Of a stretch of DNA of 64,000 nt, positions 61,401-64,000 are shown in pieces (position 1 is the first letter of the stretch; every line of letters starts with the position of its first letter). Location: positions 244,001 through 308,000 of the forward strand of contig NC_135555.1 in the NCBI RefSeq assembly GCF_964340395.1, given 5' to 3'. Origin of the DNA: Glandiceps talaboti. Taxonomy: Eukaryota > Hemichordata > Enteropneusta > Spengelidae. The translations under genes and the position numbers were made by a program. The notes beneath the pieces were generated by a model. That model saw nothing but the letters and a program-made list of their open reading frames with translations, had not been told where the DNA came from and did no database searches.

Positions 61401-64000
61401 AGGTGGATTACACCCACTCTGCTGCAATCTGTAAAGCAATGTTTGGGTCCCATTACTTAAAAATGACTCTATGCATACAATGGCAAATTATGAAAGTGAA
61501 CAAAAATGACACAAAATGTATGTGAATCTAAAATGAGAGTTTCAGTTCACTTTAGTTTCAGAGAAACATTATAAATCAGTGCAACTCTTTCAGTCAAAAC
61601 CACTGTATTCTGTTGAATGTAAGTGAGTGAATGTAAAACAAGTGGTGTATTATTTAATTTTTACAGCATTTTACATATATGTGCAACTTGCAGTACAAGT
61701 ACAAATAACATGTATATTTTTTCCAACTGTAGCTGGCGCTCTAATAACAAGAGAAACTGCCGCATTGTAGACTGAGAGATACAGAAGGTGGTGGCACTCT
61801 ATATAACCTATGTTCAACTAACACAGAGTACATGTATAGGAGTTCTACCAATGACTTATCTAAGTTACAGTCTAGCTGCTTTGCTATTTCCTAACTTATG
61901 TGCTATGGAAACCAAGCTCATAAGGAGACAAATATGTATACAAATTTACATAAACTAACCTGTGCACTGCAGTCCTTACTAACCCAAACACTGTTTGTGC
62001 TTTTTGCAATCCCATAGGAAGCTTCTAAAAGTGCAGTCTGCACTAGCAACACTAGGACTGAAAAGTTGTGGTTTTGCTGTTCAGGTCAAAGGTCAAAGGG
62101 CATCTGTATTACAGGCTCCATTGCTCGTAGCTGCTCCCCATTCCAGCTACTTTGATGGTGCGGCTTTCCCATATGCATTTGATATGGCATCACCAGTGGC
62201 TAAAACTAGTTTACAATGTGTTCCAATGTGTGGACGTATGTTATGCAGAAAGTTTAATATTCGTTTAGTAATTATCATAGACAAGTTATTCAATGTCCAC
62301 TGGGTAAATGAATCATCCTGCACACTGTCACTATCTCTGCCTGCCTCTCTAACTTTAAACATAAAGGTGGGTGATTGATACAGCTAGTACTAATGTCAAA
62401 TATTCAACATACATTAAACATCTCTTTTGTTCTTTGTACTTGTTTGATTGATTGTTTATGCTTTGTTTTACAATCTATGTTGATGTACTCATTGTTGCCG
62501 TGGGAACATAATGGGATTAGTACTATCATTGCATTATCAAAATCTGCACAAAGTTGTTTCACTATTTGTATGTTTTCACTTAATTTTTCACCCTTTATTA
62601 ACAGATGGGTGAGGGCTGTACCATATTTCTATTCAGTGAGGGCATCCTTGTTCGCAGCTGGATTTCACTGGCTGTCAATCAAGGGCAAACAGGCATCATC
62701 ACGTGAAGCTCCTTTGGCTGTAATTGCTCCCCATTCTTCCTTCGTTGATCCGTTAGCAGTCCTCTTTGCTTTTAACATTCCTACAGGTGTTGGAAGGATT
62801 GAGTCGGCCTATACTCCTTTCTTTGGAAGTATGTTCTTTCAATTTGTACTTCCTCTTGTATTTCCTCTGTTTCAGACACTTTTTAGTGATTTCAGAAACT
62901 TTTATTTTTTAAAGTTACAAATCAGTCTGAATATATCTGAGGAACTTTTGGTTTATTTATTACCTTAGGGTCATTTTTTTTTTCTTGTTATTTTTTGCCA
63001 AAGTATTAGACCTCTTTTTTTTAATGTCTTGAGCATGTTACTTAGAAAACTAGAATTTGCTTAAGCACAGATAATCAACAATTTTCAATGTTAAAATGTA
63101 GCCTTCCGTACCAGTTCATTATCATCAGGTGAACTCTTCTCGTACACTACAGTTATGATAGGAAAGATGGCCATTATCTATTGTAATAATCAGTGGCAGT
63201 GCCTGTTTGCCATTTCAAGCTAAACATAAAACTAGAAATGTCATTAATTTAAAAAGCTTCAATATGCTACATGTAAGTGCCATGTCACCACATTGTGTGT
63301 ATATTAAAGGCACATTTATAATAAGTGTTTGTATCACATTGTCAAAAATATGTGAACAACAAATTATTGTAATGAATCTACTGAAACCAGACCATTGAAA
63401 TGTGCACATCTTTTTGTTTGTATGTTTTTTGTCAGTTTGTTTCTTGTTTTTGTTTGATGTAGATAAGAATGTATGATTTCATTTGCGTAATTTGCTTTGA
63501 TTTGATGTATGTATTATATGGCAAATCTCCTGTGAGCTGGGATTGCAGGATATCCCATGTTCATAGGCTGAGCAATGTGACAGAAGTGGCAGGGGTTAGA
63601 AAGGAAGAATAACTGATAAGTCCATGTTTTTGACACTAGAGGATGACCTCAGAATCAATGCATCAGACTCTAGAAGGCATCATGATGGTGGTGGTATTCT
63701 TAAGTCTGTTCCCTGGTTCACTTTTGCTGCTGGCTATATAGTACTAATGTAAAAAGATCAAGTATAAGATGCCATTTCCATTCGCTGGTAAATTCTGTGA
63801 TTTTGAAGTCAGAATGTTACTGGTACTTTATGATGACAGTCACCTCCCTATGTCTGAACAAAGGAAATATACATACATTGATTTCATCCATTAGTCACAC
63901 TGATGTAAAGTGTTTGAGGGAAGTGACTTCTATGAAAACTTGTCTTTCCTAGTTCACTGTAACTTATCTAAATATCTTTAAAGCCATGCAGGTTTGATTC
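52498..64000 (+). CDS. LPCAT: lysophosphatidylcholine acyltransferase (LPCAT1/2/4 type), 5' part, with alternative exon 3
   Basis: ER or lipid-droplet membrane enzyme that reacylates lysophosphatidylcholine with acyl-CoA. Exon 1 is 52498-52602 ([16 protein letters not shown], compare human LPCAT4 NPFVHELHLSRLQRVK). Exon 2 is 54530-54666 (transmembrane segment [20 protein letters not shown], then GWRR). Then come two homologous versions of exon 3: 3a at 62018-62235 and 3b at 62605-62828. Both carry acyltransferase motif I (APHSSYFD and APHSSFVD, H-x4-D). Motifs II-IV and any EF-hands would lie beyond the right edge, so the gene is cut by the window. Intron 2 is 7.4 kb and contains minisatellites of 34, 45 and 55 bp, a long TA run and a foldback repeat. 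The start is the first in-frame ATG (AGAACATGA). Which human paralogue it matches is open; 3a is nearer LPCAT2/4. Confidence 0.9.
54130..54410 (+). repeat. tandem duplication of about 135 bp, two copies
   Basis: GTATATGATAAAACCTTTAT, GTTTTGTGGACCT, CCTTCCACCATACGACCT and TGGTCTGCA-type phrases recur once. In LPCAT intron 1. A poly-C run of about 27 lies at 54454-54480. Confidence 0.7.
55012..55352 (-). mobile_element. foldback-type dispersed repeat, copy 4
   Basis: Reverse of copies 1 and 3. It has TTATTCCCATTATATTTTTC, a strong inner palindrome around GTCACTAGTCTACGAGTCGC and TAGACTCGTAGTGACAACCC, TTTTGACTCATATTTTAAAA and TTCAACTTGGCTTGTGCATG. In LPCAT intron 2. Confidence 0.65.
55353..56883. 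other. LPCAT intron 2, stretch without recognised feature
   Basis: AT-rich intron sequence. No exon-like segment, RNA gene or clear repeat seen; a frame at 56670-56918 (minus) is featureless. Confidence 0.4.
56884..57063 (+). repeat. 34-bp minisatellite, about 5 copies
   Basis: Unit CTCACTGATTGGTCAATGGC plus ATCTATCAATCAAT. Each unit has an ATTGGTCAAT palindromic core. In LPCAT intron 2. Confidence 0.9.
57064..58572. other. LPCAT intron 2, stretch without recognised feature
   Basis: No supported gene. The 86-codon frame at 57601-57861 has hydrophobic stretches, but no homology or splice support that I can see. Confidence 0.4.
58573..58688. repeat. (TA)n microsatellite, about 58 copies
   Basis: Nearly pure TA for about 115 bp. 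Likely length-variable and prone to cruciform extrusion and assembly error. Confidence 0.97.
58805..59850 (+). repeat. 45-bp minisatellite, about 23 copies, in LPCAT intron 2
   Basis: Unit GTCCTGTATCCACAGACTAC, CAATTCTTGTCATGGGGTTA, CCATA. The period is 15 codons and no frame of the unit has a stop in several registers. Frames of 343 to 367 codons therefore run across it on both strands (for example [15 protein letters not shown] repeats). The simultaneous openness of three frames shows these are by-products of the array and not genes. Three unit subtypes alternate. Confidence 0.95.
60805..61165 (+). repeat. 55-bp minisatellite, about 6.5 copies
   Basis: Unit TAGCAGTAATGTGACAACGT, GAGAGTGAATCTTGCTAATT, GATACACTGATAGAA. 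In LPCAT intron 2. Confidence 0.92.
61166..62017. other. end of LPCAT intron 2
   Basis: No repeat or gene recognised. It leads to the exon 3a acceptor at 62016-62017. Confidence 0.4.
62018..62235 (+). CDS. LPCAT: LPCAT exon 3a (alternative copy)
   Basis: 218 nt. It completes the split codon AG|G from exon 2, then [39 protein letters not shown], and ends VPMCG plus one base before donor GTATGTT. Acceptor TTTTTGCAATCCCATAG. H-x4-D intact. [19 protein letters not shown] is close to human LPCAT4 and LPCAT2. Confidence 0.85.
62605..62828 (+). CDS. LPCAT: LPCAT exon 3b (alternative copy)
   Basis: 224 nt. It starts in the same phase (AG|A), [42 protein letters not shown], and ends TPFFG plus one base before donor GTATGTT, the same donor as 3a. 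Acceptor TTTTTCACCCTTTATTAACAG is strong. H-x4-D intact. Roughly 40 percent of residues match 3a around the motif, so the duplication is old and both copies are kept open. Confidence 0.85.
62829..64000. other. LPCAT intron after exon 3b, to the window edge
   Basis: No further LPCAT exon (motif II or later) and no third copy of exon 3 could be found. Frames at 63207-63409 are featureless. Confidence 0.45.

Follow-up and report, generated by a model that had tools for sequence, protein, structure and literature searches.

Tandem versions of a catalytic exon as probable mutually exclusive exons in an LPCAT1/2-type acyltransferase gene of acorn worms

An LPCAT gene of Glandiceps talaboti, an acorn worm, contains three homologous versions (3a, 3b, and 3c) of exon 3, the exon coding for acyltransferase motif I (H-x4-D) together with the preceding segment and the stretch towards motif II. 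Versions 3b and 3c are likely to be functional exons that replace each other in the messages of a single gene. Exon 3 appears to have been duplicated in tandem to give the three versions between constant exons 2 and 4. Exactly one of them would be spliced in, while other combinations would lead to a frame shift and a stop.

The G. talaboti assembly comprises 590 Mb in 47 contigs, and the window, the whole stretch of 64,000 nucleotides that was analysed, corresponds to C8:244001-308000. LPCAT extends beyond the window end and C8:303001-383000 was therefore added for the gene build; positions beyond 64000 are given here in continued window coordinates. The gene, on the + strand, was built from exon 1 (52498..52602), which holds the start codon and agrees with NCBI protein P0001, to exon 11 (99855-99979), with GT-AG introns throughout. 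Exon 2 (54530..54666) encodes a hydrophobic segment and has two codon bases, AG, left over at its end. A run of 22 C at 54459-54480, shortly upstream of exon 2, is a possible sequencing weak spot.

Exon 3a (62018..62235, + strand; 218 nt, HSSYFD) has the acceptor end CCCATAG and the donor GTATGTTAT, and exon 3b (62605..62828, + strand; 224 nt, HSSFVD) has the acceptor end TTAACAG and the donor GTATGTTCT. The lengths, motifs, common phases, and donors of these two exons were all as claimed in the original prediction, which had described 3a and 3b as a pair of exclusive exons. Their exclusive use stood but their number did not: the intron after 3b, of which 62829..64000 (+ strand) lies in the window, leads to a third copy, exon 3c (66566-66783, equal to C8:310566-310783, + strand; 218 nt, HSTYFD; donor GTATGTAAC, GTATGT), outside the window, as is constant exon 4 (69061-69234, equal to C8:313061-313234, + strand). 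In all three versions, two codon bases precede the exon and one base is left over at its end, and their GTATGT donors do not resemble the U12 consensus. The cluster thus consists of adjoining homologous exons of 218, 224, and 218 nt in equal phase, with introns of 369 nt (3a-3b) and 3737 nt (3b-3c) between them.

Homology among the exon 3 copies is judged from alignment to exceed chance, with tblastn searches of 139 kb of the locus matching the 3a query to 3b (E 2.8e-8) and 3b, as query, to 3c (E 4.2e-14). No further convincing copy was found in these 139 kb by tblastn with 3a, 3b, and 3c as queries at E up to 50, and no tandem copies of other LPCAT exons were detected there at E ≤ 0.05. In the whole genome (590 Mb), the 3b query matched 3b, 3c, and 3a (3/3 candidates scored) and the 3a query matched 3a and 3b (2/3 candidates scored). 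A genome-wide Pfam search did not pick up the exon 3 copies on their own, which was counted against the reading of 3b and 3c as working exclusive exons.

The gene is predicted to encode an LPCAT1/2-type acyltransferase, with a PlsC domain (PF01553) containing H-x4-D and PEGTC, and with C-terminal EF hands (PF13499, 57.9 bits in P0001, cut-off 30). PEGTC (motif III) sits in constant exon 4 together with VSR, taken here to be motif II; motif IV is presumably located in exon 5. Because exon 4 matched once in the whole genome (1/1 candidate), the LPCAT1/2-type gene of G. talaboti seems to be single, although a diverged paralogue could have escaped the search. The genome held 11 PF01553 loci, of which only the LPCAT exon 4 locus matched P0001, P0003, or P0005 (E ≤ 1e-3). 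A plasmid search yielded no match.

Upstream of LPCAT lies a gamma-glutamylcyclotransferase-like gene on the - strand (49459-52267), in which PF06094 is split over the exon pieces 49459-49743 and 51950-52267; it is arranged head to head with LPCAT (+ strand, from 52498). The LPCAT start codon and the likely start codon of the gamma-glutamylcyclotransferase-like gene (about 52165) are separated by ~330 bases, and the two genes may therefore have a common promoter region. Further upstream, a photolyase/cryptochrome-family gene (40412-47321, + strand) consists of several exons, with PF00875 and PF03441 in three pieces. Two long minisatellites were located, one between its exons (43696-45380; 57-nt unit x 29.9) and one in LPCAT intron 2 (58824-59837; 45-nt unit x 22.5); both make spurious long open frames.

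Single joins of 3a, 3b, or 3c remained open to a common stop in 3/3 cases (503, 505, and 503 aa, respectively), whereas the joins with none of the versions, with each of the three pairs, or with all three ran into a stop in 5/5 cases, at codon 95, 156, 156, 160, or 162. The predicted reading of the 3a-3b join, CAT GGG TGA (H G stop), with a stop after two codons, was reproduced, and the accompanying claim that only one copy can be used held at the level of usable protein. Because every non-single join runs into a stop, 3a, 3b, and 3c are mutually exclusive at this level, at least by frame, whatever the splicing mechanism. Frame-shifted messages would presumably be removed by nonsense-mediated decay.

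Steric hindrance does not explain the exclusive use, because the intervening introns of 369 and 3737 nt are not too short and can be spliced. A crude test for Dscam-like docking sites and selectors, covering G. talaboti introns only, compared words common to the 300-nt flanks of 3a, 3b, and 3c with shuffled means. Upstream flanks had 4 common 6-mers (shuffled mean 3.1) and 0 common 7-mers (0.35), downstream flanks had 7 (4.8) and 1 (0.74), respectively, and no 8-mers or 9-mers were common to the flanks. No selector words clearly exceeding the shuffles were detected in this test.

Annotated proteins were searched with the exon 3 regions. The 3b-region query retrieved two proteins of 130 candidates, P0001 and P0002. 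P0001 (NCBI 'lysophosphatidylcholine acyltransferase 2-like [Glandiceps talaboti]') was letter-for-letter equal to the 3b join, which had been predicted before P0001 was seen. The possibilities that 3b is a pseudo-exon or, as the original prediction had considered, an exon of a neighbouring gene were ruled out by P0001, which has 3b in the LPCAT frame. With the 3c-region query, four proteins of 26 candidates were found: P0003, P0001, P0004, and P0005. P0002 and P0003 are the LPCAT2-like isoforms X1 (3b-type) and X2 (3c-type) of Ptychodera flava. The 82 residues before and the 353 residues after the block are identical in X1 and X2, while the block itself measures 73 versus 71 residues, with borders no more than one or two residues away from the ends of exon 3 in Glandiceps. 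Each of these annotated isoforms uses exactly one alternative exon block.

Both the use of 3b in P0001 and the restriction of the P. flava differences to this block agreed with the earlier proposal of mutually exclusive catalytic exons in LPCAT. Its further expectation of two isoforms from 3a and 3b was borne out in part: the conserved isoform pair is 3b/3c, and 3a was in no protein found. The exon pair sought in relatives was likewise present in P. flava as 3b/3c, whereas no 3a-type isoform of this species was among the proteins found. Glandiceps (Spengelidae) and Ptychodera (Ptychoderidae) belong to different families of Enteropneusta. Because P. flava isoforms from another family differ only by a 3b- versus a 3c-type block, 3b/3c is considered, on these comparisons, an old, conserved exclusive pair. 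Both exons would have arisen before Spengelidae and Ptychoderidae separated; according to the P. flava annotation, which may be based on RNA reads, both would have been kept as isoforms. G. talaboti proteins from the 3b- and 3c-region searches included only the 3b form and no 3c form, which was counted against this reading.

Between the two species, 46/76 residues of the 3b blocks and 48/74 (65%) of the 3c blocks were identical, as compared to 30/74 for 3b versus 3c within Glandiceps; orthologous identity thus exceeds paralogous identity for both blocks. In a tree of seven short sequences, the 3b blocks of Glandiceps and P. flava grouped with support 96/96; support for the 3c pair was 0/44 despite its 65% identity, which was counted against the conserved pair. 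Because identity between Glandiceps and P. flava in the constant parts was 59/80 and 281/349, the alternative exons appear to evolve faster than the rest of LPCAT, yet are clearly kept. The exon 3 block of P0005 (561 aa) comprises 76 residues with the 3b pattern P-[ST]-G-V-x-R-I-E-x3-T-P, a hint that the 3b type may predate hemichordates.

For exon 3a, a role as a working third version, rarer or tissue-restricted, is considered fairly likely. It is also conceivable, but doubtful, that only 3b and 3c work as alternative exons, with 3a a copy that was silenced recently or has never been in use. Consistent with such silencing, the 3a-region protein search yielded 0/239 candidates at E ≤ 0.001 in any species, Glandiceps included, and 3a shared only 27-35% of residues with the other five full-length copies. 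It deviates at 5/19 columns that are invariant in those copies, including the H in GFH and the T that follows the last G, and is without the glutamate after K/R-x that is present in 3b and 3c of Glandiceps. Against silencing, 3a has an open frame, is bordered by GT-AG sites, and fits in phase, and its best match was P0004 (25/51), as compared to 16-20 matches in 51-52 columns for the other five; P0004 is, however, close to every copy (3c 30/51).

Domain scores argued in the same direction. Pfam searches with exon 2 and 3 pieces alone gave 13.5 bits for 3a (cut-off 23) and only an unrelated weak family for 3b; these pieces were uninformative and full-domain joins were used instead. PF01553 scored 68.3 bits in the 3a join (268 aa; profile positions 2-130), the best of the three, as compared to 60.8 bits for 3b (P0001) and 57.7 bits for the 3c join (268 aa), with a cut-off of 23. 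Controls, which carried the exon 4-5 tail and had somewhat shorter flanks than the real joins, reached 40.5 bits without exon 3, 40.7 bits with 3a shuffled, and 38.7-47.8 bits with eight simulated neutral copies. Exon 3a thus added 27.8 bits to the baseline without exon 3 and the eight neutral copies at most 7.3 bits, with the same reservation on control flanks. Because its score was the highest of the three and above the controls, 3a does not resemble a copy that died long ago.

Simulations of neutral decay, starting from 3b or 3c, used substitutions only (1500 runs each). At 27-32% identity, 4-7% of runs had no stop and 0.3-0.5% also kept H and D. At a milder 45% identity these fractions were 7-12% and 0.7-2.6%, respectively, which was counted against a working 3a. 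Exon 3a agrees with the other five full-length copies at 14 of their 19 invariant columns, versus 25/55 matches elsewhere, a weak difference (Fisher p = 0.03); in the same count with each of the other five left out in turn, the copy left out departed from at most one of 14-15 such columns.

The histidine and aspartate of H-x4-D are kept in 3a, 3b, 3c, and both P. flava forms. Each isoform would retain the constant remainder, with the PEGTC exon and the EF hands, and exchange the surroundings of the catalytic histidine. By analogy to the gate exons of ACSL6/ACSL1, the swap would most likely tune the choice of acyl-CoA or lysophospholipid, or membrane docking, rather than acting as an off-switch of the enzyme, and an altered acyl-CoA or lysolipid preference among isoforms is plausible. 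Alternatively, one isoform could be catalytically reduced or regulatory instead of an enzyme of different specificity. Alterations of 3a and 3b within H-x4-D and in the stretch after it would fit such a form, but replacement of either H or D of motif I by A abolishes activity of mouse LPCAT1 (PMC4280512) and these residues are kept in all forms, so that we regard a reduced isoform as decidedly unlikely. The literature is split on whether motif II is an acceptor or an acyl-CoA site (PMC4280512).

An extended reading, in which three functional catalytic cassettes, each with its own acyl-CoA/lysophospholipid preference, do by splicing what vertebrate LPCAT paralogues do, is judged unlikely. An origin of the cassettes before hemichordates is possible, because 3a and P0004 (25/51) and 3b and P0005 (25/52; tree grouping 93.9/86) are each closer than 3a and 3b (20/52). 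Counted against such an age were the nearness of P0004 to every copy and the size of the tree, with its seven short sequences. Placement of exon 3 in a predicted fold was dropped, since the structures predicted for P0001 and P0003 with 5-row alignments were too poor (mean pLDDT 50.3 and 50.8, respectively). Among the best 60 of 448 PDB matches to P0003 there was no solved acyltransferase relative; these matches covered the EF-hand part and were mostly calmodulin, calcineurin B, and fusions.

Selection of 3a, 3b, and 3c by separate promoters or ends, or their assignment to two overlapping genes, is very improbable: although 3a is without known transcript, X1 and X2 of P. flava are identical outside the block, out to both ends, and P0001 consists of exons 1, 2, 3b, and 4-11 joined. 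An assembly artefact or haplotype mixture, with diverged copies of one exon put side by side, can practically be disregarded, since 59-73% of aligned residues differ between copies, far past allelic difference, the copies are 369 and 3737 nt apart, and the 3b/3c pair is present again in a second species.

The H-x4-D, PEGTC, and EF-hand plan is found in vertebrate enzymes that include LPCAT4. Vertebrate LPCAT1 and LPCAT2 share this plan with acorn-worm LPCAT, but vertebrates vary LPCAT via separate genes, in contrast to the exon swap in acorn worms. Three splice variants are reported for mouse LPCAT2 (PMC4280512), two of which are without 40 residues including motif III; these are not an exon swap. 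Clusters of mutually exclusive exons from tandem exon duplication are described as adjacent homologous exons that have nearly the same length and share a phase (PMC5740500; PMC9013439; PMC6071210), as in LPCAT of G. talaboti, and double inclusion in them likewise causes a frame shift that forces single use. Relative to the clusters described in these sources, the acorn-worm case differs in that the swapped block holds the acyltransferase catalytic dyad and the host is a hemichordate. 'LPCAT' and 'acyltransferase' have 0 occurrences in the main text of the human landscape of mutually exclusive exons (PMC5740500). In invertebrate deuterostomes, mutually exclusive exons are described in G-alpha genes of amphioxus (PMC5896119). 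ACSL6/ACSL1 resemble acorn-worm LPCAT as lipid enzymes that handle acyl-CoA and have a mutually exclusive exon pair; swapping of their fatty-acid gate exon has been proposed to affect activity (PMC1543647). They differ in belonging to the acyl-CoA synthetase family, in exchanging a short gate motif and not a catalytic motif, and in having a pair instead of three versions.

Mutually exclusive exons are well known, and the catalytic H-x4-D motif is unusual as the swapped target. The assertion that no such case had been described in LPCAT held for the literature, mostly outside subscription sources, in that no paper on mutually exclusive LPCAT exons was among the matches listed; it did not hold for databases, since the P. 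flava X1/X2 isoforms are already in NCBI, with no paper on them among the matches listed. In acorn-worm LPCAT, a phospholipid-remodelling enzyme, the exchanged block contains both catalytic residues, histidine and aspartate, while PEGTC and the calcium-binding part stay constant, and one gene can probably make differently tuned versions of the enzyme. The 3a, 3b, and 3c isoforms would be natural matched chimeras for establishing which region determines the acyl and lysolipid choice of PlsC-type enzymes. Acorn-worm LPCAT would also offer a clear case in which splicing and gene duplication can be compared as ways of diversifying lipid enzymes in deuterostomes.
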